A DNA stretch of 48,273 bases, taken from the NCBI GenBank assembly GCA_031264145.1, contig JAISEK010000082.1, positions 1-48,273 of the forward strand. The letters run 5' to 3'. The notes under the pieces are model-generated. The model saw nothing but the letters and a program-made list of their open reading frames with translations. It had not been told where the DNA came from and ran no database searches. The DNA comes from Deltaproteobacteria bacterium. Lineage in GTDB: Bacteria; Desulfobacterota; Desulfarculia; Adiutricales; Adiutricaceae. Positions 2,342 through 15,597 of the stretch are shown one piece after another; position 1 is the first letter of the stretch, and every line of letters starts with the position of its first letter. The translations under genes were made by a program, and so were the position numbers.

Positions 2342-2419
2342 GAGCCCTGCCCCCTAGGCTGGCGTCTCCATTGGGCTTTAGCCGCGCCTGGATATTCGAC
2401 TGCTGGGCCTGCCGGCCGT

Positions 2420-2448
2420 TTGCGGCCCGATGTCTTGTCGGGTATAAT
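2420..2448 (+). promoter_or_regulatory. Sigma-70-like promoter for the Type ISP-like gene
   Basis: TTGCGG at 2420-2425 and TATAAT at 2443-2448 are separated by 17 bases, about 210 bases ahead of the ATG at 2657. The -10 is a perfect match in otherwise GC-rich DNA. The 2342-2656 spacer holds no other gene I can support; the main frame can be extended upstream to 2420, but that extension is low-complexity and includes the promoter. Confidence 0.45.
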
Positions 2449-2656
2449 GCCGCATGGTCGCCCATTATCGGTCAATTGCGTCCCCGGAACGCCCTGGGCG
2501 CCGAGTTCGCCGGCCTCATGGCCTGCGGTGGCCCCGAAGGCCATGCCCGGCCAGGATCTTTTCGTCACGGAAGGGTCATCGGGGACCAGTATGTCCCCGG
2601 CCGAGCCAGGGCCATTCCCCCATCTGGCGCATCCCCTTCCTGGACCATATCCAGCC

Positions 2657-5600
2657 ATGAATTTCCTCGCGACACTGGACGACTATCGGTCCCGTCCCGG
2701 GCAGAGGCCGGCCTTCCCTGAGCTGGTGGCCGGCTTCCTGGCCTCCCATCCTGTCTACGACCAATTGTTCGTCCGTTCCTGGCCCCTGGACCGCTGCCCC
2801 ATGAGGGAGGCCCTGGGAGGGCCGGACGCCGGCGTCGACGTCGTCCTTGAGACCAAGGCGGGCCGGTTCTGGGCCGTCCACGCCAGGAGCGGGGTGGCCG
2901 GGGAGGCCGTGGGCCAGGGGGAGGTCCGGGCCTTCCTCGCCGCGACGGGCGCGCCCTTCCCGGACGGGGCCGGCGGGCGGGCCAGTTTTGAGGCCAGGCT
3001 CTGGCTCTCGGGCCCCGAGGCCTGGACCCCGGAGGCCGAGGATGTGGCCAGGAACCGGGGCGATCCCTTCCGGGCCGGCCCTTGGCCGGGCCTGGTGCCC
3101 TTCCTGCGTCTTGGCCCGGCCGAGTTGGAATCGGCCCCGGTCGACTGGGCCAGGCTCCGGGAGGGCCTGACCGGACCAGCGGCCAGGGTCCCCAGGAAGG
3201 AACTCCTGCCACACCAGGAAAAGGCCCTCTCGCGAGTCATGTCGCATCTCGCCCGCCAGGGCCGGGGACAGCTGCTCATGCCCGGCTGGACGGGCAAGGC
3301 CCTGGTGGCCCTGAGGGCGGCCGAGGGCCTTTTGCGGGGCCGGGGGCTGGCCATCTTCCTGGCCCCGTCCGCGGCCCTGGTCGGCCAGGCCCTTAGCGAG
3401 TGGGCGTCCGGGGCCAGGACGCCCTTCCAGCCGATCTGCGTCTGCCAGGCCGGGGAGCCGCCGGACCTGCCGGGGTCCGGGCTGCCCCTCCCGTCATCCG
3501 CCCAGGTCCCGGACATCATGGGGAGGCTCAGGGACGCGGCCAGGTTCTGGCCCGGGAGGCCGGTGGCCGTCTTCTCCTCCTTCGGGGCCCTGGACAGGCT
3601 GGCCGAGGCCCTGCGCCTGGCGGCCCTGGAGGCTGACCTCCTGGTCTGCGGCGAGGCCCACCTGGCGGGCCACGGCGGACCTGCCTGGCCTGGACTGGCC
3701 AGGATCCACGGGAACTCGTTCATGAGGGCGAAAAGGCGGCTTTACCTCTCGGCCACGCCCAAAATCTTCGGCGACCGCTCCAAGGGACGGGCCCAGGGGC
3801 ACGGCGTCCCGGTCTGCTCCATGGACGACGAGAGGCTCTTCGGTCCGGTCATCCACCGCCTGGGCCTCGGGGAGGCCGTAGGGGCGGGCCTGGCCTCGGA
3901 CTACCGGGTCCTGGTCCTGGCCGTCAGCAGGGCCGAGATACCCGACGGCGTGGTCGACTGGCTTCGCGGGGCCGGCCAGGCCACCGATCTCGACGAGGTC
4001 GCCCGTCTGGTGGCCGTCCTCCATGCCCTGTCCAAGGACGTGGCCCTCGAATCCGGCCTTCTCTCGTCGGCCGAGCCCGGGCCCATCTCCAGGTGCCTGG
4101 CCTTCTGCGGGAGCCAGGAGGAGGCCAGGGCGGCGGCGGCGGGCCTGGCCCTCATCCGGCAGGCCTGGCTCTCGGTCCTCCCCCCTGGGGCCGGCGCTGG
4201 CCTTGCGGCCGTGAGGGCCGAGCATTGCCTTGGCCTGGATGCCTGCCCCGGGTCACTGGACGACGTCGAGGGGGAGTGCCTGGTCCTCTGCCAGGCCGGC
4301 TGCCCCAACGGGGACCAGGCCCTCCCAGCCCCGGACGCGGTCATATTGTTGGCCGCCCCCCGCTCGGAGACGGAGGCCATCGCGGCGGTGGCCCCGGCCA
4401 TGCGCCCGGCCCCAGGCAAGGGGCGGGGCCACGTGGTCATCCCGGTGGTCCTCCCGCCCTACGTCCGGCCAGAGGAGGCCCTGGGCGGCTCGGGCAAGGC
4501 CTTCGAGCCGGTCTGGATGGTCCTTGACGCCCTGAGGGCCCTCGACGACCGCTTCGGGGCCACCATGAGCAAGACGCGCTTCGACGAGGTCAGGCCCTCA
4601 TGCGGGGGCTCCCTGGCCCTCGGCGCTCTCCCCGGGTCGTCCTGGGGCACCCCGGACGGCCAGGGGATCGGGGCCCTGCGCGAGGCCTTTTTCGCTCGTC
4701 TGGCCGACCGGACCGGCAGCCGCCAGAATCTCCTGCGGCTGTCCCGCAAGGCCGGTGCCCTGGCCGACGGCCTCGTCCGGGACATCCTGGCCCTGGCCAG
4801 GAAGGAGGGCCCCGGCCGAGATGAGTTCGCCGATTTCCTGGAAAACGTCAGGAAGACCCTCAACCCGGCCATAGCCCCGGCCGAGGCCGCCGAGCTACTG
4901 GCCCAGCACCTGGTCTCCAGGCCCGTCCTCGAGGCGCTGTTCGCCGACGGCCCGGGCCTGCGGGACGACCTCGCGGCCCAGGCGCTGGACCGGATGTCCG
5001 GGATCCTCCGGGCCCCAGGCCATGGGCGGTTTTCAGGGGCCCTGGTGGCCGGCGAGGTGGCCGGCCTGGACGACAGCCGGGCCAGGCGGCGGGCCCTGGG
5101 CGCCGTCTACGAGGACTTCCTCAGCAAGGCCTTCCCCAGGACCGCCGAGACGCTGGGCCCCGTCTTCACCCCGGAGGAGGTGGTCGATTTCGTCAACAGG
5201 TCGGCCGACCGGATCATGGAGAGGGAGTTCGGCCGGAGGCTGGCCGACCGGGACGTCCACATCCTGGACCCCTTCGCCGGGACCGGGACCTTCATCGCCC
5301 GGCTCATGGAGACGGGCCTCGTGGGCCGGGGAGAGGAGCTGGCCGAGAAGTACCGCTCCGGCCTCCATGCCAACGAGACGGTCCTCCTGGCCTACTACAT
5401 GGCGGGCCTCAACATCGGGACCTCCTTCCGGGCCCTGGGCGGGGACGCCGGGGAGGGCCCCTTCCCTGGCCTGTGCCTGGCCGACACCTTCCGCCTGGTC
5501 GACGAGCAGGCCGAGTTCAAGGAGGAGTTCCGGGGGGAGGAGCCGAGCAAGATCCGGAGGGAGATATTTCCCTGGAACTCCGCCAGGGTGGCCCGCCAGA

Positions 5601-7471
5601 TGGCCCTGCCCGTCTCGGTCATCCTCGGCACCCCGCCATTCCGCGTGGGCCAGAGGTCGGCCAACGCCAACGCCCAGAACATCATCTACACGAAGCTCCA
5701 CGCCGAGATTCTTCTGTCATACGCCCGCAGGTCCAGGGCGGAGGACAGGAGGTCCCTCTACGATTCCCACGTCAAGGCCATCCGCTGGGCCACCGACCGC
5801 CTCGATCCCAGAAGGGGCGGGCTGGTCGCCTTCGTCACCGACTCCGGCTGGCTTGGCGGGGCGGCCATGGACGGCCTCCGCAAGACCCTGGCCGAGGATT
5901 TCGACCGGATCTACGTCCTAGACCTGAGGGGCGGGGGGCGGGACGGGGGGCAGGGGCCAGGGCGGGAGGGCGACGGAATCCTCGGCCCGGGCAGCCGGAG
6001 GTCCGTGGCCATCGTCTTCCTCATAAGAAAGCCCCTGTCCGGCCGGAAGGTCCCCAGGCGGGCGGTGATCTTCTACCACGGGGTCGGGGACTTCCTCTCC
6101 CGGGAGGAGAAGCTGGGGCTCCTGGCCAGCCTGGGCGACGTCTTCGCTCCCGGCCTGGAGTGGGAGACCATAGAGCCGAGCCGGGATGGGGACTGGATAA
6201 ACAGGAGGGTACCCCTGTTCGAGAGGCTCATGGCCTTCGGGACCAGGGACCGCCAGGAGTACCGCTCGGTCTTTTCCGGCAACTTCTCCCCCGGCTTCCA
6301 GGCCTCCAGGGACGCCTGGTGCTACAACTCCTCGAGGCGGAGGCTCGAGGAGAACATGCGGGCCACCATCGGCTTCTACAACGAGAGCCTGGCCAAGTTC
6401 GAGGGCCTGCCCTTCAACGAGCGGAAGAAGGCCCACGTCCCGGTGGACAAGGCCAGGATCGGCTGGTCGGCCTCGCTCATGCGCCACTTCTTCATCGGCC
6501 GGAAGGCCGCGTTTGGCGGCGAAAACATATTCGTCTCGGTCTACAGGCCGTTCCTCAAGCGGCATCTGTACAACGACGGCATGTTCAACGGCGGCCGGAA
6601 TCCCATGTCCGGCTACTTCCCGACCCCCGGGCATGGGAACCTCGTCATCTGCGTCGGCGGCAGGGGAGGGGAGTTCTCGGCCCTGATGGTCGACGCCGTC
6701 CCTGACTGCCAGCTGCTGCCAGACTGCCGGTGCTTTCCCCTCTACCGCTACCAGGAGCACATGGGGGGCAGAAAATTCCTGCCGGGGCCCTGGGTCCTCC
6801 ATGACGACCGCTTCGCCAGGATGGAGACCGTCACCGGCTTCGCCCTGGAGGAGTTCCGGGCCGGGTACCGCCCCAGGCCAGGCCGGGACGGGAGCATCAC
6901 GTTCGCCCCGGCGATCAGGGCGGAGGACGTCTTCTTCTACGCCTACGGGATCCTCCACTCCGGGGACTACCGGCGGGCCTTCGCCGCCGATCTCGCCTAT
7001 GGCCTGCCCAGGCTGCCCCTGGTCGACGGGGCCGACGACTTCTGGGCCTTCTCCAGGGCCGGCCGGGCCCTGGCCGATCTTCACCTGAACTATGAGACCG
7101 TGGCCCCATTCCCGGGTGTCCGGGTGACGGGCCTGGAAACTGGCGACCTGTCCGTCGTCCGGATGGCCTTCGCCGGCGAGGGCGACAAATCGGCGGTGCG
7201 CCTGAACCCAAGCGTGACCATCTCCGGCATCCCACCGGACGCCTATGGCTACGCCCTAAACGGCAAGCCGGCCCTGGAGTGGGTCATGGACGGCTACCGG
7301 GCCACGACCGACGGGGAGACCGGACTGGCCAACGACCCCGACGACTGGGGCAGGGAGCAGGCAAGGCCAGGTTACGCCCTGGACCTGTTCAGACGGCTGA
7401 TAACGGTGAGCCTGGGGACGCTGGAGATTGTGGCGGGGCTGCCGAGGATCGACTTTCGTTTCCCCGTCTAG
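2657..7471 (+). CDS. Type ISP restriction-modification-like protein with degenerate catalytic motifs
   Basis: A 1604-residue protein, the usual size of single-chain Type ISP enzymes (LlaGI/LlaBIII type), which combine an Mrr-like nuclease, a superfamily 2 helicase, an N6-adenine methylase and a target-recognition domain. The ATG at 2657 begins MNFLATLDDYRS; the frame is open upstream to 2420, but that stretch does not look coding. Domain order is intact. Nuclease: Asp61, but HAR at 75-77 where QxK is expected. Helicase: motif I is GWTGKA (210-215) instead of GTGKT, motif II is GEAH (332-335) instead of DEAH, SATP (365-368) is kept, and motif VI reads AAVAPAMRP (576-584) instead of QxxGRxxR. 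Methylase: motif I DPFAGTGTF (871-879) is kept, but motif IV is TPPF (992-995) instead of NPPY. The C-terminal recognition region is well preserved (VTISGIPPDAYGYALNGK). The reading frame is unbroken. It is either a repurposed binding protein or a recently inactivated enzyme. Confidence 0.85.
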   Translation: MNFLATLDDYRSRPGQRPAFPELVAGFLASHPVYDQLFVRSWPLDRCPMREALGGPDAGVDVVLETKAGRFWAVHARSGVAGEAVGQGEVRAFLAATGAPFPDGAGGRASFEARLWLSGPEAWTPEAEDVARNRGDPFRAGPWPGLVPFLRLGPAELESAPVDWARLREGLTGPAARVPRKELLPHQEKALSRVMSHLARQGRGQLLMPGWTGKALVALRAAEGLLRGRGLAIFLAPSAALVGQALSEWASGARTPFQPICVCQAGEPPDLPGSGLPLPSSAQVPDIMGRLRDAARFWPGRPVAVFSSFGALDRLAEALRLAALEADLLVCGEAHLAGHGGPAWPGLARIHGNSFMRAKRRLYLSATPKIFGDRSKGRAQGHGVPVCSMDDERLFGPVIHRLGLGEAVGAGLASDYRVLVLAVSRAEIPDGVVDWLRGAGQATDLDEVARLVAVLHALSKDVALESGLLSSAEPGPISRCLAFCGSQEEARAAAAGLALIRQAWLSVLPPGAGAGLAAVRAEHCLGLDACPGSLDDVEGECLVLCQAGCPNGDQALPAPDAVILLAAPRSETEAIAAVAPAMRPAPGKGRGHVVIPVVLPPYVRPEEALGGSGKAFEPVWMVLDALRALDDRFGATMSKTRFDEVRPSCGGSLALGALPGSSWGTPDGQGIGALREAFFARLADRTGSRQNLLRLSRKAGALADGLVRDILALARKEGPGRDEFADFLENVRKTLNPAIAPAEAAELLAQHLVSRPVLEALFADGPGLRDDLAAQALDRMSGILRAPGHGRFSGALVAGEVAGLDDSRARRRALGAVYEDFLSKAFPRTAETLGPVFTPEEVVDFVNRSADRIMEREFGRRLADRDVHILDPFAGTGTFIARLMETGLVGRGEELAEKYRSGLHANETVLLAYYMAGLNIGTSFRALGGDAGEGPFPGLCLADTFRLVDEQAEFKEEFRGEEPSKIRREIFPWNSARVARQMALPVSVILGTPPFRVGQRSANANAQNIIYTKLHAEILLSYARRSRAEDRRSLYDSHVKAIRWATDRLDPRRGGLVAFVTDSGWLGGAAMDGLRKTLAEDFDRIYVLDLRGGGRDGGQGPGREGDGILGPGSRRSVAIVFLIRKPLSGRKVPRRAVIFYHGVGDFLSREEKLGLLASLGDVFAPGLEWETIEPSRDGDWINRRVPLFERLMAFGTRDRQEYRSVFSGNFSPGFQASRDAWCYNSSRRRLEENMRATIGFYNESLAKFEGLPFNERKKAHVPVDKARIGWSASLMRHFFIGRKAAFGGENIFVSVYRPFLKRHLYNDGMFNGGRNPMSGYFPTPGHGNLVICVGGRGGEFSALMVDAVPDCQLLPDCRCFPLYRYQEHMGGRKFLPGPWVLHDDRFARMETVTGFALEEFRAGYRPRPGRDGSITFAPAIRAEDVFFYAYGILHSGDYRRAFAADLAYGLPRLPLVDGADDFWAFSRAGRALADLHLNYETVAPFPGVRVTGLETGDLSVVRMAFAGEGDKSAVRLNPSVTISGIPPDAYGYALNGKPALEWVMDGYRATTDGETGLANDPDDWGREQARPGYALDLFRRLITVSLGTLEIVAGLPRIDFRFPV

Positions 7472-7655
7472 GAGCATTGGTGTTCAGTCAATAGGGAAAA
7501 GAGAGGTTCAAGGTGGAAGAAGAGCAGTTATAGGCCAAGACGACGAGGAGAAAAGCTCAATCACCGACGCAACTCTGCGGCAAGCGTGCATTCACGTGAA
7601 ATGAAAAGCCAACCACGACAGTCTTGCGTACAGCCCATATTTTATGAATGAGGGG

Positions 7656-7690
7656 TGATGCCGTCCGCTGGCATCATGAGTAGTTTTTTG
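7656..7690 (+). terminator. Possible Rho-independent terminator
   Basis: TGATGCC (7656-7662) and GGCATCA (7670-7676) form a perfect 7-bp stem with a 7-base loop. Seven bases later comes TTTTTT. It lies downstream of the Type ISP-like gene. The distance between stem and T-run is longer than ideal. The rest of the 7472-7765 spacer shows nothing recognisable. Confidence 0.4.
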
Positions 7691-7765
7691 AGATTTGCTC
7701 GCTCCTGGGACCACAAAGCACCGATGAGATGAAGTGATGGTCAGGAGGCGAATGCGCCCGCCTGT

Positions 7766-8652
7766 TTACAGCTTCAGGTCCAGACCGCTGGCTTTTTCCT
7801 CCAGCATCTTCTCGATGATGTCGGCGATGTAGCTGCCGGCCTCCACGGCCGGGGCGCCTTGTCGGTGAATGTTGGAGACCACGGTGCGGCGGGCCCCCGG
7901 CATGTCCAAGGTGGCCTTGTAGGCCAGGTAGGCGCTCATGCTCTCGGCGGTTATGAGGCCGGGCCGTTCGCCGATGAGGGCGCAGACCACTTCGGCGCCG
8001 GTGATTTCGCTAATCGCATCCTCGGTGCCCACCCGAGCGTACTGCACGAAGAACGGCGCGCAGGGCTTGACGTTGATGCGGGCCAGCCCTCCGGCGATGG
8101 CCTTGTAGGCGTCCATGGCGTTGGTGGTCACGGCCGTGGTCGAAAGGCCGTCGGCCACGTAGATCACCACCTTGTTGTCCGAGCCCACGTGGGCCTTGAT
8201 TTTCTTGGCTTCCTTGTCATCGAACTGGCGGCCGAGGTCGGGCCGGGTTAGATAGATGTCCTTGTTCTCGCACTTGGTCTTGAAGCGCTGGAGGCTGTGC
8301 TCCTTTATCCAGTCCTCGGAAACGTCGGTGAAGACCGCGTCCATGGCCACGGCGTGGTCAGCCCGAAAGCGCAGTAAGGTCTCGGTGAGGTAGCGCGGTC
8401 CGGCCCGCCAGACCGCAATGCGGGCCGGGGTGGTCTTGCGCATGCCCTTGAGGGCCTCGGGATTGTGGGGATTGGGCACCTTGATGACGTCCTGCAGATC
8501 CAAGGCCCCGAGGTCCGGGAGGCCCTCGGCGTTGCCGGAGGCATAGGCCGTCTTCCGCTTCCCGCCCGCTGCGGTGGCCGGGGCCGGAAGCTTGCCCCCA
8601 TTTCCGGCAAGATGGCCTTGATGGCTTCCTTCAGTTCGTGTTCCGTGGCCAT
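7766..8652 (-). pseudogene. eutC: Ethanolamine ammonia-lyase small subunit, frameshifted
   Basis: EutC pairs with EutB in the adenosylcobalamin-dependent lyase that splits ethanolamine into acetaldehyde and ammonia. The body of the protein is clear: LDLQDVIKVPNPHNPEALKG, RPDLGRQFDD, VIYVADGLSTTAV, LIGERPGLITAESMSAYLAY and the C-terminal IADIIEKMLEEKASG. The true N-terminus (MATEHELKEAIKAILPEMG, ATG at 8650-8652, preceded by AAGGGGGT) is in a different frame from the rest. The switch falls at CCCCC, 8595-8599 on the plus strand. One extra base there would restore a 295-residue protein, the normal EutC length. The cause may be mutation, slippage or a base-calling error. No eutB or microcompartment gene is in the window. 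Confidence 0.85.
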
Positions 8653-9133
8653 TGTCTACCCCCTTGGCATATCTGTACGGCTGCTGGCGATTGCCTCTGG
8701 CCCCAACGCCTGGCCGGCCGGCGGCGAACGTCTGCGGGACGCCAGGCGGCCTCGTTTTCGGATCGCCTGGGAGCCTGGCCACTATGCGTGGCAGCCGGGA
8801 TAACTGTCAGTGGCCTTGGCCAGGATTTCGGCAAGGTCCATGAAGGCGTGAATTTACCCTGACAGAATGGTTTTGGGAAACATGCGGCATCCTCAGTCAA
8901 TCAGCGGGATTCGAGGTCGATGCAAAACCCCCCCGTGACCCAGAATGACCTGTTTATGGTATCTATTGTCAGGGTTTTAAAACTGCGGAATTAAAAGAAT
9001 AGGGCTTTTATACTGGAGACCTGAATGATTTGCCAAATGTGCCAGCGATAGGCTTTGAGTACTTGCAAAAAGACATGGCAGATCTTTTAGGCATTGGGTA
9101 TATCTCAAAAATTTTACTGATTATTTCAACCGA
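8653..9133. other. Gene-poor stretch upstream of eutC
   Basis: No complete gene could be supported. On the minus strand a short frame beginning MDLAEILAKATDSY near 8843 stops after 19 codons and may be a remnant. From about 9089 the plus strand already reads as part of the transposase-like remnant that follows. A run of seven C residues occurs near 8929. Confidence 0.3.
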
Positions 9134-9385
9134 ATGCGCCCGTACATACCAAACTATTCCATGCTGACCTGCCTTGGTCTAAGAAATTCAAGCGATCTGG
9201 TTGAAAAGGCCAACGACCTGGTGATGGCCAAACGTCAGAAACATGATGTTATGGCTTGGTCAAAAGAAGGTTCAGTGGGGCTAGCCTCGGTCTCATCAGC
9301 CTGTCTTAATGGTGTGATTTAGTCGTGGACCAGGCATGCCATGATTCCGATGAGGCCAATTCCGATTCTGGCCACGGCAGTATAG
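9134..9385 (+). pseudogene. C-terminal remnant of a transposase-like gene (copy 1)
   Basis: The frame reads through RPYIPNYSMLTCLGL and KRQKHDVMAWSKEGSVG, then meets a TAG at about 9320. Past that stop, the same frame continues as SWTRHAMIPMRPIPILATAV to a TAG at 9383-9385. The second copy at 48134-48273 has GAG (Glu) where this copy has the early TAG, so this copy carries a nonsense mutation. The similarity continues about 35 bases past the gene end (GCACAGGTGGAA in both). A Trp-Ser-x-Glu-Gly string near the C-terminus and two dispersed copies suggest an insertion-sequence transposase, but I cannot name the family with confidence. Confidence 0.5.
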
Positions 9386-9432
9386 CCGCTGTTTTTATTT
9401 GCACAGGTGGAAAAAATCTGATACAAGGCATT

Positions 9433-9612
9433 ATGGATTTTATGTTTAGTTTCTCCAGGCTAGAAATAACGCTGACACGGGAAAGCCGCGACGTAACGGT
9501 CACCCGAATCAAGGAGGACAGCCTGATGCTCTTACAAAGCGTTTCAAATGGGCAAACGGTTTCTTTCGGTTCAGAGAACTGGCGTGTCATTAACGAATAC
9601 GTGCGAGATTAA
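9433..9612 (+). CDS. Small hypothetical protein ahead of the RyR ATPase gene
   Basis: A 59-residue frame beginning MDFMFSFSRLEITLTRESRD and ending SFGSENWRVINEYVRD. It contains a run of alternating hydrophobic and polar residues that looks like beta-strand protein, and it lies just upstream of and partly within the leader of the ATPase gene. The ATG at 9433 is preceded by AAGG only four bases away, so the start is uncertain; 9442 is an alternative. It could be a small member of the neighbouring cassette or the 3' end of a decayed gene. No family recognised. Confidence 0.3.
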   Translation: MDFMFSFSRLEITLTRESRDVTVTRIKEDSLMLLQSVSNGQTVSFGSENWRVINEYVRD

Positions 9613-9703
9613 CAGGCCTGTTGGAAGGGTGGAGAGATATATTCTGGAAAAACAACGTAATCTAAACACTGGCTCGTCTGTCAAAATGAGTGGAGGCGTC
9701 GAA

Positions 9704-12082
9704 ATGAGTTTTGATTTCGCTGTGGCCGGCAATGGCTGGACCAGAGATGTTTATTACACGAATAAAGGGGAATATGCTTCTTTCACCATGCCTGGAGGCG
9801 GGTTACTTGTCGCGCGGATATTGGCGGGGCAAGGTATTTCCATTGCGCCGGCGGAAGTCCCGCAGCCGGAGCAGATTGAGCATCTTTCCTTCGCCTGCTC
9901 GGGGGACGGGATTTTCTCTGTCGGAATCCATGCCGGCGTAACAAAGGGTAACCATTTCATCAAGGCGCAAGAGGCGGCTGTCCTGATCGTTTACGATGAA
10001 AGCGTCAGTGACTTTTCGCCACCGGAAAACGCTTCAATATTGTGGGCATGTGAAAATAAACTTCCCGATCAAAAACTGTTTGAGCCGGTAAAAGAGCGCT
10101 GTTTCCTGATGCTCTCCGCCGACGCTCTCCGTAATGCGGGGGCACTGATCAGCCGCCAGATATCGTGGGAGCGCACCGCTACCGACCTTGTCTGGCAGCT
10201 CAAAAACAATCCGAAATTCGACTTTCTTCGGGGCGTTCCTGATATACTCGTGATGTTTGCCGAAGACGGTGCGGTGCATGTCCGGCAGGATGCGGGCATA
10301 TGGAAAGTCATCCTTACGCTCACGCGCGGCGGGTTTGAGGACGAACTGCGAGAAAAAAGCGGCCGTGACATCCCTGATACGTGGGCTGTGTTGGTGGCGG
10401 GGGCCGCTACCTCATGGAAAGCGCGGATTGACAGCGCTACAAAGGGGAACTGCGAAATCCGCGTCAGCGATGTTTTAAGGCCGGCGGCAAAGCTTCTGGA
10501 ATCCGGCTACGTTCCTGAACTGATTGCGAGCGGAGATTTCAGCAAATGGCTGGAAATCGAGCCGGACAGCGGCACGCCTTTTGCCTATGTGGTTCCCATT
10601 TCAGCGAGCCAAGAAACCGCTGACCCCGATTTTTGGTGCATCAGCAATGCCTTCCAAGGAAGCAAGGTCTATGATATCGCCTGGAATTACGTGCTGGAGG
10701 GGGCCAAGGTTATCGACGGTATCCCGCGCTTTTCCTGCGGTGCCCTGACGACAGTTGACCGAAAGGAAATCGAGGCGTTTCAAAACATCCGCAACCTGAT
10801 TACCTCTTACGCGGCGGGAAACGCTTCCCGCCCCCTCTCGATCGCCGTGTTCGGCTCGCCCGGCAGCGGTAAATCCTTTGGCGTGACGCAGATTGCCAAA
10901 AACGTACTGCCCAATGTGGAGAAACTTGAATTCAACGTGTCCCAGTTCACTTCCGAAGACGATCTGGCGTCCGCTTTTCACCAGGTACGGGACGTGATTC
11001 TCTCGGGGAAACTTCCTTTGGTGTTTTTTGACGAGTTCGATTCCGACCGTGTCGGCAGGGCTCTGGGCTGGCTGAAAAACTTCCTGATGCCTATGCAGGA
11101 CGGAAAATTTAAGGACGCCTCCGGTGAGCATCCCGTTGGCAAATGCGTGATGGTTTTCGCGGGCGGAACGTCATCTACATTCGATGATTTTTGTCTGCCG
11201 ATGAATTCTGAGGACTCCGCCGTCGTTTCAGCGTTCAAAAATGTCAAGGGTCCAGACTTTGTGAGTCGCCTGCGGGGCATGATCGATGTGGTTGGGCCGA
11301 ACCGGGCGTCTGACACGGATCAGAACTTTCTGCTCCGCCGGGCGCTGTTGCTGCGCGGTTTATTGGAACGAAAGCTGGGCGTCAAAGCCGGTCGCCTGCC
11401 GATCAGCAAGGATGTGCTGCACGCCATGTTGAACGTGCCGAAATATAAGCATGGTGCGCGTTCCATGGAATCTATTTTAGATATGAGCCGCCTGGGCGGT
11501 GAGTCATGGGAACCCGCCTCGCTCCCCTTCCACTCTCAGCTTTCCCTGCATGTGGATGCGGACGCTTTTATCCGCCTGGTACTAAAAGAGGTGGTTCTCA
11601 GCGCCTACAATGAAACCCTGGCCAAAACTATCCACGAAGATTTTTTGGCCATGAACATACATAAGAACTATACGGAGAAACAGGCGGAGCGAAATTCGGA
11701 TTCTTCCTACGGTGAGGACTGGGACAGCCTGCCGGAAGAAATAAAGGATTCCAACCGTGCGCAAGCGCTCTCAATTCCGCAAAAGTTGCTGCTGGTGCGC
11801 TGCGGCTTCGACGCGGGCGATACGCCATACCAGACGCTGGAGGAATTCACCCCGGATGAGATATTGCTGTTGGCGCAGAACGAGCACATCCGCTGGATGG
11901 AGGAAACAACGCGGAACGGATGGGTATGCGGCCCGGTGAGGGATAACAACGCTAAAATCCATCCTTGTCTGGTAGAGTGGAATGTCTTGCCGCCGGAAGA
12001 GCAGCAAAAAGACATTGACGTCGCCAACAACATCATCCCGCTGCTCAAAAAGGCGGGGCTGCGCGTGTATCGGATGGTATAA
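9704..12082 (+). CDS. AAA+ ATPase with C-terminal RyR domain
   Basis: The ATG at 9704 is chosen because GGAGG lies seven bases upstream; the frame extends to 9548 without a better start. The protein has 792 residues. The N-terminal third contains glycine-rich MPGGGLLVARILAGQG and later ISWERTATDLVWQL, possibly a sugar-kinase-like fold (tentative). The ATPase follows: Walker A GSPGSGKS at 384-391, Walker B VFFDEFD at 440-446, then SRLRGMID as a possible arginine-finger region. The last 70 residues (NEHIRWMEETTRNGWVCG and KIHPCLVEW) match the RyR repeat first known from ryanodine receptors. In bacteria that domain occurs in conflict-type gene neighbourhoods and is proposed to bind nucleotide-derived ligands. 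A hairpin follows the stop. With the TIR gene downstream it may be the sensor or effector ATPase of an immune system (inference). Confidence 0.85.
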   Translation: MSFDFAVAGNGWTRDVYYTNKGEYASFTMPGGGLLVARILAGQGISIAPAEVPQPEQIEHLSFACSGDGIFSVGIHAGVTKGNHFIKAQEAAVLIVYDESVSDFSPPENASILWACENKLPDQKLFEPVKERCFLMLSADALRNAGALISRQISWERTATDLVWQLKNNPKFDFLRGVPDILVMFAEDGAVHVRQDAGIWKVILTLTRGGFEDELREKSGRDIPDTWAVLVAGAATSWKARIDSATKGNCEIRVSDVLRPAAKLLESGYVPELIASGDFSKWLEIEPDSGTPFAYVVPISASQETADPDFWCISNAFQGSKVYDIAWNYVLEGAKVIDGIPRFSCGALTTVDRKEIEAFQNIRNLITSYAAGNASRPLSIAVFGSPGSGKSFGVTQIAKNVLPNVEKLEFNVSQFTSEDDLASAFHQVRDVILSGKLPLVFFDEFDSDRVGRALGWLKNFLMPMQDGKFKDASGEHPVGKCVMVFAGGTSSTFDDFCLPMNSEDSAVVSAFKNVKGPDFVSRLRGMIDVVGPNRASDTDQNFLLRRALLLRGLLERKLGVKAGRLPISKDVLHAMLNVPKYKHGARSMESILDMSRLGGESWEPASLPFHSQLSLHVDADAFIRLVLKEVVLSAYNETLAKTIHEDFLAMNIHKNYTEKQAERNSDSSYGEDWDSLPEEIKDSNRAQALSIPQKLLLVRCGFDAGDTPYQTLEEFTPDEILLLAQNEHIRWMEETTRNGWVCGPVRDNNAKIHPCLVEWNVLPPEEQQKDIDVANNIIPLLKKAGLRVYRMV

Positions 12083-12089
12083 ACCGGCT

Positions 12090-12135
12090 CCTGTCACGGT
12101 TTTGGCAATGCCGGAACCGTGACACGGGTCTTTTT
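12090..12135 (+). terminator. Rho-independent terminator after the RyR ATPase gene
   Basis: TGTCACGGTT (12092-12101) pairs with AACCGTGACA (12115-12124) to make a 10-bp stem with a 13-base loop, and TTTTT follows at 12131-12135. It would partly or fully separate the ATPase transcript from the zinc-ribbon/TIR pair. Confidence 0.7.
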
Positions 12136-12230
12136 GAAGCCGAAAGGGCGCTATGCTGATTTCATAGGAATTGGTGGGCGTCGTTCTGTGTTGTAGTGGA
12201 ATTACACTTTTTAAAAAGGCAGGTAAAATT

Positions 12231-12644
12231 ATGGGACTGTTTGGTAAAATTATTGGGCTATTTAGGAAGAAGAAAATATCTAAAGTTGCGGAAATCGATC
12301 TTAAAATTATTGAAACAGTTTTTGATTCGATACAGGGACCTAGTTTGGGAGAAAAATATGATGAATTAATGAAACAGTCCATGCTAATGGATATGGAATT
12401 TAACGCTTCTGTTGTTGAGTGCAAAAAATGCGGAAACAAGTTCACAATGAACGATGGATGGCGACTATTTCGAGGCATGGCGAAGGAAAGCGTCATTAAA
12501 GATTCGGACTATAGAAATACGCTGATGTGCGGCGATTGTTTTTCCATTTTTGCGTATAGACACGATTACAAACATGTAAAAATCGAACTGACCCATGATA
12601 AGACCCATGAAAAGGAAAAACTTCTTCAGGAGAAATACCTGTGA
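12231..12644 (+). CDS. Small zinc-ribbon protein coupled to the TIR gene
   Basis: A 137-residue protein starting MGLFGKIIGLFRKKK, an amphipathic and basic N-terminus that might associate with membrane. The middle is helical. CKKC near residue 63 and CGDC near residue 101 form two CxxC knuckles about 35 residues apart, consistent with one zinc ribbon. The C-terminus is Lys/His/Glu-rich. The ATG at 12231 is preceded by a GGCAGG stretch; the open frame reaches back to 12171 but that part has no ribosome site. Its stop (12642-12644) overlaps the GTG start of the TIR gene, so the two are almost certainly co-translated. No named family was recognised. It may be an adaptor or regulator of the TIR protein. 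Confidence 0.7.
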   Translation: MGLFGKIIGLFRKKKISKVAEIDLKIIETVFDSIQGPSLGEKYDELMKQSMLMDMEFNASVVECKKCGNKFTMNDGWRLFRGMAKESVIKDSDYRNTLMCGDCFSIFAYRHDYKHVKIELTHDKTHEKEKLLQEKYL

Positions 12645-14575
12645 ACGTCATTCGCAAAGCGAAAGGCGACAGGCTGCGGAGACAGTCGCAGAGGATATTC
12701 TTATGCCTGGACGAGCGGAATATTTCCGACGCGGACAGCTTGATTGCTGACCGCTTGCTTCCTAACGTCCCATCCGCTGATTACATCGTTTCTTATCTGG
12801 AAGCACCGGCGGCGGATTTGGACATGGATTTGCTGCGCGAAGAGATAAAAGACACCAGCGTCATGGTTTTATGGGTGACGGAAGAATTGCTGGCTTCGCG
12901 GAAAGCCGCAGGCAAATGGCCGTCGGAATATCAATTTGCCAGGGAAATGTCCGTCCATATCATACCCTTTGTAAAAGACGTGGCCCTTTTCCCTGAATTT
13001 ACCCGGCTTTCGGGCGCAATACACGGCATCGGGCAGGCGGACGAGGATTTTCTGATCAAGTATTATAGTCAGTTGTCGTCCTATCAGTATACTGAGGACA
13101 CAGTGAAGACGATCCGTGACAAGGCGTTCACAGCCGAGATTTTCCTGAGTTATCGCAAAAAAAATATTCGCGAGGCCCGCGAGTTCATGCGGAAATTGCA
13201 CGACATCGAAGGGTTTGAAACGATTTCAATCTGGTACGACAATTTTCTCACCGCCGGTAGAAACTTCGACGACGAAATCAAGGAATCGATCAGGAAAAGC
13301 GATGCTTTTGTGCTTTTGGTGACCCCGGATCTTGCCACTGAGGGCAACTATGTGCAAACGACGGAGTATCCATTTGCGCTGGAAAACGGCAAGACCATCA
13401 TACCCGTCGAGGCTGCATCTACCGACCTGGCTCGTTTTGAAAGCTTGTATCCAGACGCACAGCGGGTCTTGCCCGTGGATGAAAAAGCCGCCTTGCGCGA
13501 CGCTTTTATAAAAAATCTGAAATTTGTTGTGTCCGGCGAACCCATGGGCTACGAGCGTGCGTATTTTCTGGGGCTTTCCTATTTGAACGGCTTCGGCGTG
13601 GAAAGGGATATCGGACGAGCCTTCCGTCTGCTGGAGACTGCCGCGGAGGGCGACGACGCCGCCGCGCTACACGCCTGCTTCCCGTTGTGTTTCCACTACG
13701 GTAACGGGTCAACGGGGTGCGCTGATTATAAAAAAGCGCTTTATTACCGCAAAAGGAGCGTTGACCTGTCAGAGCGGCTTTTGGGCGCGGAACACCGCGA
13801 TACCGCCGTGGCATACTACGACATGGCGAACCTGTGCGCTGGCGCGGGTGATTATGAACAGGCCGCCTTGTGGAGCGCAAAGGTGACAAGTGCATGCGAG
13901 AAAGCGTTCGGCCTGGAACACGAATACACCGCCGCGGCATATGCCCTCGCCGGGAGGGTTGCCATAGACAAGGGAGACTACGCAAAGTCGGTCGTCCCGT
14001 TGGAAAAGGCTTTAGCCATAAACGAAAAAGTGCTGGGCGATAACCATCAACAAGTCGCAGCCGCTTACGGTAACTTAGGGACGGCGTATATGTATATTGG
14101 CGATTTGGCCAAAGCGATGGAATACTCATGCAAGACGATGGCTATTTACGAAGATTTATATGGAAAAGGCGACAGCCGGACTGCAATGATATACCAGAAC
14201 ATCGGAGGAATCTACAATGAGTTGGGGGATTACTCCGCCGCAATGGAATGGCTGAACAAGGCTTTGACCAGCCAACAAAAAGCATTCATGTCGGATGAAC
14301 ACCGCGACTGCGCAGTCACATACAATACATTGGCCGTAGTCTATGCTAACATGAACCAAGATAAAAAAGCCATTGAAGCGGTCAAAAAGGCTTTGTCCAT
14401 CAACGTAAGAACATTGGGCATGAGCCACCCAGACACGATTGGCACGCAGCAAAGCATGTTGAACCTGAACGCCGCGATAGGAATCAAACGAAACCAAAAA
14501 ATCGCCGGATGGGCGCTGCTGGCATTTATAGTTTTGTTTGGGATTGCGGCGTATGTATTGTCAAAGGTATTGTAA
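12641..14575 (+). CDS. Tandem TIR domain protein with Sel1/TPR repeats and C-terminal membrane anchor
   Basis: A 644-residue protein starting at GTG 12641, with AGGAG 11 bases upstream and a four-base overlap with the previous gene. Residues 16-130 form a divergent TIR-like domain (IKDTSVMVLWVTEELL, Glu96 in SEYQFA, HIIPFV). Residues 164-295 form a clear TIR domain (AEIFLSYRKK, WYDNFLTAGRNFDDEIKESI, DAFVLLVTPDL, Glu242 in TTEYPFALENGKTIIPVE). The conserved Glu is the position used by NAD-cleaving TIRs. A Sel1-like unit (304-345) precedes kinesin-light-chain-type TPRs (about 365-610; LGAEHRDTAVAYYDMANL, LGDNHQQVAAAYGNLG). The protein ends in one hydrophobic helix, 622-644. TIR domains in bacterial immunity hydrolyse or cyclise NAD; the TPRs would sense a partner. 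Catalytic activity is inferred. Confidence 0.88.
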   Translation: MNVIRKAKGDRLRRQSQRIFLCLDERNISDADSLIADRLLPNVPSADYIVSYLEAPAADLDMDLLREEIKDTSVMVLWVTEELLASRKAAGKWPSEYQFAREMSVHIIPFVKDVALFPEFTRLSGAIHGIGQADEDFLIKYYSQLSSYQYTEDTVKTIRDKAFTAEIFLSYRKKNIREAREFMRKLHDIEGFETISIWYDNFLTAGRNFDDEIKESIRKSDAFVLLVTPDLATEGNYVQTTEYPFALENGKTIIPVEAASTDLARFESLYPDAQRVLPVDEKAALRDAFIKNLKFVVSGEPMGYERAYFLGLSYLNGFGVERDIGRAFRLLETAAEGDDAAALHACFPLCFHYGNGSTGCADYKKALYYRKRSVDLSERLLGAEHRDTAVAYYDMANLCAGAGDYEQAALWSAKVTSACEKAFGLEHEYTAAAYALAGRVAIDKGDYAKSVVPLEKALAINEKVLGDNHQQVAAAYGNLGTAYMYIGDLAKAMEYSCKTMAIYEDLYGKGDSRTAMIYQNIGGIYNELGDYSAAMEWLNKALTSQQKAFMSDEHRDCAVTYNTLAVVYANMNQDKKAIEAVKKALSINVRTLGMSHPDTIGTQQSMLNLNAAIGIKRNQKIAGWALLAFIVLFGIAAYVLSKVL

Positions 14576-14653
14576 CGCCGACATGCGAGATCTGAATTAT
14601 ACCCGGTACCACTCAACTCGGACAAACCACTCTCCAGCTTCTGCAAAAGAACC

Positions 14654-14698
14654 TGAACATAAAGCCCACCCTGGAAATCAGGGCGGGCTTTATGTTCA
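14654..14698. terminator. Bidirectional terminator between convergent units
   Basis: Two 20-base arms (14654-14673 and 14679-14698) pair with a single mismatch around a 5-base loop. The arm ends are T-rich or A-rich on both strands, so it can stop the TIR gene on plus and the antitoxin gene on minus. Confidence 0.8.
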
Positions 14699-14749
14699 AT
14701 GTCGTGGTCACCGTGTGTGGCCTTTGCGAGGACTTATGGCCGCTGACGG

Positions 14750-15124
14750 CTACAGAAACATCTGGTATGGGACTTTGAAGACAGCGCCAAGCTTTTTGGC
14801 CATTTCTTTACTGACTTCTCGTCGGCCATTTTCCAAATCAGACACCCTGTTTTGCTTGGTGCCTAAAAGCTCGGCCAGCTTTTCCTGAGTCAGGTCAAAC
14901 TTAAGCCTGAACCCTTCAATCAACATGCCGGGGGCCCTTTCGGGAAAAACTTCCGCGACGCTGAATACTTCATTGCCTTCATCATTGAGATCCCTGACCC
15001 GGTGTCCGGCGGTGTTCAAGGCGGCGGACACGGCTTCCCGTATCTTTAAAGCATCCTTGATGGGCACGGTCACGATAATTTCAGCTAATTCGCCTGTAGT
15101 CTGCATTTTCATGTGTGCCAACAT
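14750..15124 (-). CDS. HigA-type antitoxin with XRE helix-turn-helix
   Basis: A 124-residue protein. The N-terminal part (GELAEIIVTVPIKDALKIRE) is likely the toxin-binding or dimerisation segment. Residues 75-115 (FDLTQEKLAELLGTKQNRVS, DLENGRREVSKEMAKKL) form a Cro/C1-type helix-turn-helix that normally represses its own operon. The ATG at 15122-15124 is preceded by GGAG at the right distance; further in-frame ATGs occur at 15112 and 15106. It overlaps the end of the toxin frame, the toxin-first order typical of HigBA modules. The antitoxin frame is intact although its toxin partner is broken. Confidence 0.85.
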   Translation of the reverse strand: MLAHMKMQTTGELAEIIVTVPIKDALKIREAVSAALNTAGHRVRDLNDEGNEVFSVAEVFPERAPGMLIEGFRLKFDLTQEKLAELLGTKQNRVSDLENGRREVSKEMAKKLGAVFKVPYQMFL

Positions 15125-15429
15125 ATTTGATCTCCATAATCTGGACTTCAAAATCAACAACCTTCCAGACCACCACATATCGTGGTTTACCGTTGTTGAG
15201 ATGGCAATGCCGGAAATCTTGGTTTGGATTTTTATGTTGTTTGGAAATCCTGGTTTTTTCCCTTCCCACCCAGCTTGCCGTAATTGCGCCACTCAAGCTG
15301 CTCCGGCCATTCCAATTCCGCCGTCAAGACGGCCAAGAGTTTTCGCATGTCATCAGGCAATTTTTCTTTTTGCTTACGGGCCTGATTGGAAAATGTCACC
15401 CGCCAAGGCGAGTCTGGGCTTTCCTCCAT
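15081..15429 (-). pseudogene. RelE/HigB-type toxin disrupted by a 31-nt insertion
   Basis: HigB/RelE toxins are ribosome-dependent mRNA nucleases. The N-terminal part (SPWRVTFSNQARKQKEKLPD, WRNYGKLGGKGKNQDF) runs into a stop. The C-terminal part (RHCHLNNGKPRYVVVWKV, IMEIKYVGTHENADY) continues in another frame. GGAAATCTTGGTTT at 15212-15225 and GGAAATCCTGGTTT at 15243-15256 are near-identical direct repeats 31 bases apart. Removing exactly one 31-base period joins NQDF to RHCHL in frame and gives a normal 105-residue toxin. The gene starts at ATG 15427-15429 and overlaps the antitoxin gene. Confidence 0.82.
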
Positions 15430-15597
15430 TACTTATTCGTTTTTTTCTTCCTTGGCGGTCAAGTCTCGCCTCCACCTGAATCAATTATAACCATTCTGGT
15501 AATATTGCCAAGCGCCCGAGTGCCCGCCCAAATGATTCGAAAGTCTGTTATGGGGATAAACACTTATCCCCTACGCCTGTTTCCGGCCCCTGGTGGC

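Follow-up and report, generated by a model that had tools for sequence, protein, structure and literature searches.

The window, the whole 48,273-nucleotide stretch that was analysed, carries on its forward strand a single open frame of 1604 codons (2657-7471), which lies in a block of genes that includes a eutC and two putative defence-related proteins. The sequence-only reading had described this frame as unbroken, and indeed it contains zero stops. The features considered here are the following.

2342-15597, no strand assigned: variable block comprising the window gene, a lone eutC, an AAA+RyR protein, a TIR-TPR protein and small ORFs (from sister-species comparison)
2657-7471, forward strand: Type ISP-derived protein with all five domains and replaced catalytic residues (from sequence, Pfam and PDB matches)
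2708-3181, forward strand: Mrr-like nuclease domain, aa 18-175; Asp of GVD kept, Q75H (2879-2881), K77R (2885-2887)
3182-3811, forward strand: RecA lobe 1, aa 176-385; Walker A G211W and T215A, DEAH D332G
3812-4471, forward strand: RecA lobe 2, aa 386-605, the worst-degraded domain; motif V changed at 548-555, motif VI Q576A, G579A and R580P
4472-5041, forward strand: linker and coupler, about aa 606-795, strongly diverged
5042-6271, forward strand: N6-adenine methyltransferase domain, aa 796-1205; DPFAGTGTF kept, N992T (5630-5632), F1109L (5981-5983), R1095 and R1114 kept
6272-7456, forward strand: target recognition domain (Type_ISP_C), aa 1206-1600, the best-kept domain

Genomic setting and domain architecture

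The 13 kb block is flanked by hexapeptide-transferase and histidine-kinase genes, which adjoin or lie one small gene apart in three sister species. Conservation of the locus in the sister species was rejected, the block being absent there, and they have no orthologue of the window gene at this locus, which counts against the explanation that we favour below. The window gene thus sits at a variable location that carries defence-like cargo. At 9548-14575, the genes for the AAA+RyR-domain protein, a small ORF and the TIR-TPR protein (TIR_2) have a GC content of 51-54% amid host genes of 64-67%; the TIR protein gave a weak ThsB-like match in PADLOC, and the set is possibly an uncharacterised defence operon. 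The lone second eutC (7766-8782) is 78% identical to the eutC of a genome from another genus (G029) and 63-69% identical to those of its own genus, and beside it we found no eutB-sized ORF, no eutB remnant and no flanking direct repeat. No obvious Shine-Dalgarno or promoter-like site was seen upstream of the window gene, which also counts against the favoured explanation, although neighbouring host genes are likewise without a clear Shine-Dalgarno sequence. Because the genome is a 198-contig assembly and the window gene has a higher GC content than its flanks, we considered a chimaeric or foreign GC-rich sequence arising from metagenome assembly or binning. Such an artefact is, however, highly improbable: the gene sits within a 48 kb contig and adjoins host-type genes with orthologues in sister genomes, its codon-position GC (0.69/0.52/0.91, compared with about 0.50/0.35/0.4-0.8 in relatives) is even along its length, and chimaeric assembly does not give rise to scattered losses of motifs.

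A single polypeptide combines the nuclease, SF2 ATPase, coupler, N6-methyltransferase and recognition domain, which Pfam detects in Type ISP order as Mrr_cat_2, ResIII, ISP_coupler, N6_Mtase and Type_ISP_C (PF18135, 5e-77), and PADLOC labels the protein a restriction-methyltransferase. The nearest solved structures in a PDB sequence search are the Type ISP restriction-modification enzymes LlaGI (5ffj, 5e-203) and LlaBIII (4xqk, 4e-202), which match all five domains of the window protein, in order and over the full length, and share with it Type_ISP_C, motif I and the base-flip arginines, whereas the window protein has its nuclease, ATPase and methyltransferase catalytic residues replaced and 28% of the family-invariant columns changed. 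The methyltransferase-recognition half also resembles the Type IIG enzyme DrdV (7lo5) in sequence and predicted fold, although this match is limited to the C-terminal half and the NPPY of DrdV is canonical. AlphaFold models built with homologues reached a pLDDT of 85 (aa 8-640) and 81 (aa 660-1604), both being closest to LlaBIII in the PDB; as modelled, the sequence is compatible with a Type ISP fold, the models leaning on the homologue alignment and not constituting proof of folding.

Catalytic positions compared across Type ISP proteins

To keep the collection unbiased by catalytic state, Type ISP proteins were gathered with patterns drawn solely from the recognition domain, and a comparison set of 94 proteins from many phyla was scored at 27 nearly invariant catalytic positions. 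The window protein is replaced at 13 of the 27. Since 77 of the 94 homologues deviate nowhere, and six or more deviations are found in only three full-length proteins (the window protein with 13, L018 with 7 and L038 with 6), its losses exceed chance; the same scoring rules out catalytic loss as a common Type ISP state. Across the phylum, NPPY was found in 29 of 30 Type_ISP_C loci, the remaining one being a short ORF. Single replacements in otherwise intact Type ISP proteins were also observed, with a nuclease K changed to I in L042 and NPPY changed to NVPF in L011.

Alignment with LlaGI, LlaBIII and other Type ISP proteins bore out the earlier claim that the nuclease QxK, the Walker A Thr, the DEAH Asp, the motif VI Gln/Gly/Arg and the NPPY Asn are all replaced while SATP and DPFAGTGTF remain, and it added losses in motif V and at F1109. 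In the nuclease domain, QxK reads HxR (H75, R77) with the Asp retained, leaving the Mrr-type combination of D and QxK incomplete, and because this motif is lost, the protein is predicted to be unable to cut DNA. In the ATPase, Walker A CGTGKT reads GWTGKA (W211, A215), DEAH reads GEAH (G332), motif V R...EGVD reads G...GDQA (548-555) and motif VI QxxGRxxR reads AxxAPxxR (A576, A579, P580), so that SF2 motifs I, II, V and VI, on which ATP hydrolysis and translocation depend, all depart from consensus; RecA lobe 1 retains the Walker Lys and, in motif III (TAT), the second Thr. In LlaBIII, the motif V substitution R564A alone abolishes cleavage (PMC7049714), and the equivalent residue of the window protein is Gly. 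With the Walker A Thr, the DEAH Asp and motifs V and VI lost, the protein is predicted to be unable to hydrolyse ATP productively or to translocate.

In the methyltransferase, the SAM-binding motif I is intact, and R1095 and R1114, which correspond to the base-flip intercalating arginines R1119 and R1138 of LlaGI, are both kept. On the other hand, NPPY reads TPPF (T992, F995), which falls outside the motif IV pattern [DNS]PP[YFW]. In LlaGI, the flipped adenine is held in place by the catalytic Asn (N1018), with F1133 stacked on it (PMC4872093); these residues are Thr and Leu (1109), respectively, in the window protein. Adenine methylation is probably lost as well, because both the catalytic Asn and the base-contact Phe are gone. 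Also missing from the recognition domain are three lysines that are otherwise invariant, which counts against the explanation that we favour below. Because the catalytic features examined are absent, we describe it as a Type ISP-derived protein and not as a Type ISP restriction-modification enzyme.

Rates of change, base composition and simulated drift

The end branch of the window gene measures 2.55 in the tree, against a median of 0.44. Relative to the median, the end branch is 5.3-fold longer for the nuclease, 5.6 for RecA lobe 1, 8.4 for RecA lobe 2, 7.0 for the coupler, 4.6 for the methyltransferase and 3.5 for the recognition domain, and the conserved columns kept in these domains amount to 67, 60, 47, 50, 72 and 77%, respectively, compared with about 94% in homologues. 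The recognition part had been called well kept, and it is the best-preserved domain on both measures. The accompanying statement that only active-site residues were lost was mistaken: acceleration affects every domain (3.5-8.4 times the median), and otherwise conserved columns are changed throughout, at 40-53% in the RecA lobes and coupler, 33% in the nuclease domain and 23-28% in the methyltransferase and recognition domains. Family-invariant columns are kept at 82-85% in the methyltransferase and recognition domains versus 62% in the N half, where conserved columns are lost as readily as variable ones, so that constraint there appears to act on fold more than on identity. This N-half pattern looks like unconstrained drift and counts against the explanation that we favour.

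A decay gradient of this kind, with RecA lobe 2, the coupler and the nuclease worst affected and the methyltransferase and recognition domains best kept, would also arise if restriction had been lost first and an orphan methyltransferase, epigenetic or protective, had then stayed under selection, with the Asn lost recently or, less likely, with Thr still methylating, and with no new function acquired. A protein that was an orphan methyltransferase until recently is the main rival to our preferred reading, a genuine possibility that we nevertheless hold to be unlikely. It accounts for the intact frame without a new role and agrees with the intact motif I and with an NPPY changed by N to T and Y to F, the F being found also in a homologue (L020) that retains the Asn. 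However, position 1109 is Phe in 91 of 92 aligned homologues, the window protein being the sole one to have lost it, so that two residues of the adenine pocket are gone; the Asn has been lost independently in the pair L018/L038; and an orphan methyltransferase leaves an in-frame N half with a preserved core unexplained.

Base composition bears on a further alternative, that of a plain pseudogene decaying slowly under strongly GC-biased mutation, in which stops are hard to reach and the open frame is a matter of luck. At the lost invariant columns, minimal base changes run AT-to-GC in 81 cases and GC-to-AT in 11 (81/92), GC3 is 0.91, and GARP residues make up 41% of the protein, compared with 26-37% in neighbouring proteins and 25-34% in GC-rich plasmid Type ISP proteins. 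Because the replacements are mostly AT-to-GC and both GC3 and GARP content are raised, mutation bias under relaxed constraint can be said to have set the direction of change. High GC alone as the agent eroding the motifs was ruled out, as five plasmid Type ISP genes of 56-66% GC keep all of theirs. With a GC3 of 0.91, stop codons are rarely reached, and the earlier argument that random decay should bring stops first is correspondingly weaker for the window gene. In 40 runs of an unconstrained drift simulation at an equilibrium GC of 0.91, started from the family consensus and ended at an invariant-residue loss matching that of the window gene, drift nevertheless gave 5.8 stops on average and 84% hydrophobic core, as against zero stops and 94% core in the window gene; none of the 40 runs was free of stops and none had a core as good. 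For the N half alone, 2.0 stops were expected under drift, with a core of 78% simulated versus 91% observed. The simulation was run without indels, and adding them would strengthen the case against luck. Indels are to be expected among some 600 neutral changes, and the gene has zero frameshifts in 4.8 kb. Although the failure of the N half to spare conserved columns fits a plain pseudogene, the gene has neither the stops or frameshifts nor the loss of fold pattern that mark a decaying one, decayed copies in related genomes do carry stops and fragments, and L018 and L038 show this state too, although GC bias is no explanation for them. We judge a plain pseudogene to be quite unlikely.

Parallel copies and a possible role without catalysis

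A first scan of the genome contigs with the window protein as sole query gave no match. The host family comprises 37 genomes, presumably of termite or cockroach gut bacteria to judge from our reading of the isolate codes, and 29 of them have matches to the window protein. The window genome itself has a paralogue at C68 (L002), with about 42% identity to the window protein over the whole length; unlike the window protein, it has all 27 catalytic positions intact and an ordinary branch length. A second paralogue at C116 (43% identity) is cut by the contig start. As the closest long matches are 42-43% identical, none exceeding 43%, there were no relatives suited to a dN/dS estimate. An intact Type ISP gene is followed, about 4.5 kb further downstream, by split C-terminal recognition-domain fragments (L056, G000:C68:34543-35206), which could be debris or a recognition-domain reservoir.

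The two other full-length proteins with several losses, L018 (G014:C4:45878-50719; 7 of 27 positions) and L038 (G014:C82:10180-15048; 6 of 27), resemble the window protein in being open, without stops, and on long branches, and both have the NPPY Asn replaced by Thr; they differ from it in being AT-rich, in their set of losses and in their origin. They are sister to each other and apart from the window gene in the tree, and a single ancestral dead clade uniting all three was rejected (AU p 0.0015), so catalytic loss in this pair is independent of that in the window gene. The same drift calculation predicts 17-27 stops in L018 and L038, where none is seen, and for these AT-rich genes the argument that decay should bring stops first is strong. 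Their genome also carries a copy with intact motifs, present as an N-terminal piece (L213), and other copies in family genomes decay through stops and fragments. Of the original interpretation, enzymatic loss within an intact, fold-preserving frame is thus upheld by the drift simulations and by this pair, while the restriction of loss to active-site residues is not; the reuse that it suggested, as a DNA-binding regulator or decoy, is a hypothetical role, and the interpretation as a whole is partly supported.

From the protein sequence, the motif losses, the intact frame, the retained hydrophobic core and the stronger keeping of the methyltransferase-recognition half are established. With somewhat better than even confidence, we favour the explanation that the window protein is a folded Type ISP pseudoenzyme, kept mainly for its methyltransferase-recognition half and presumably binding DNA. 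Under this explanation, selection would have retained the protein because its recognition half can still bind DNA sites, though no cut follows, and it may act as a static binder that competes for those sites with other proteins, among them the active Type ISP paralogues in its cell. GC-driven drift under relaxed constraint would account for much of the amino-acid change in the rest of the protein. A DNA-targeting nuclease that has lost catalysis and kept binding has a tested regulatory function; that protein is unrelated, and its likeness to the window protein is one of analogy only. A literature search for inactive restriction homologues returned nothing relevant. More tentatively, and in our view doubtfully, dead full-length Type ISP proteins might form a recurrent class, with at least two origins in one family, selected as binders of DNA sites with a long footprint that would serve gene control or keep active Type ISP motors from colliding on host DNA.

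A decaying restriction gene would normally be expected to lose its reading frame. Here, three large Type ISP proteins that arose independently on two occasions have lost catalytic residues in several modules and kept frame and core. A full-length Type ISP call from a profile search may denote an enzymatically dead protein, which is a warning for annotation. If selection for a non-enzymatic role proves true, restriction proteins would be, like TnpB, a natural source of DNA binders free of catalysis.
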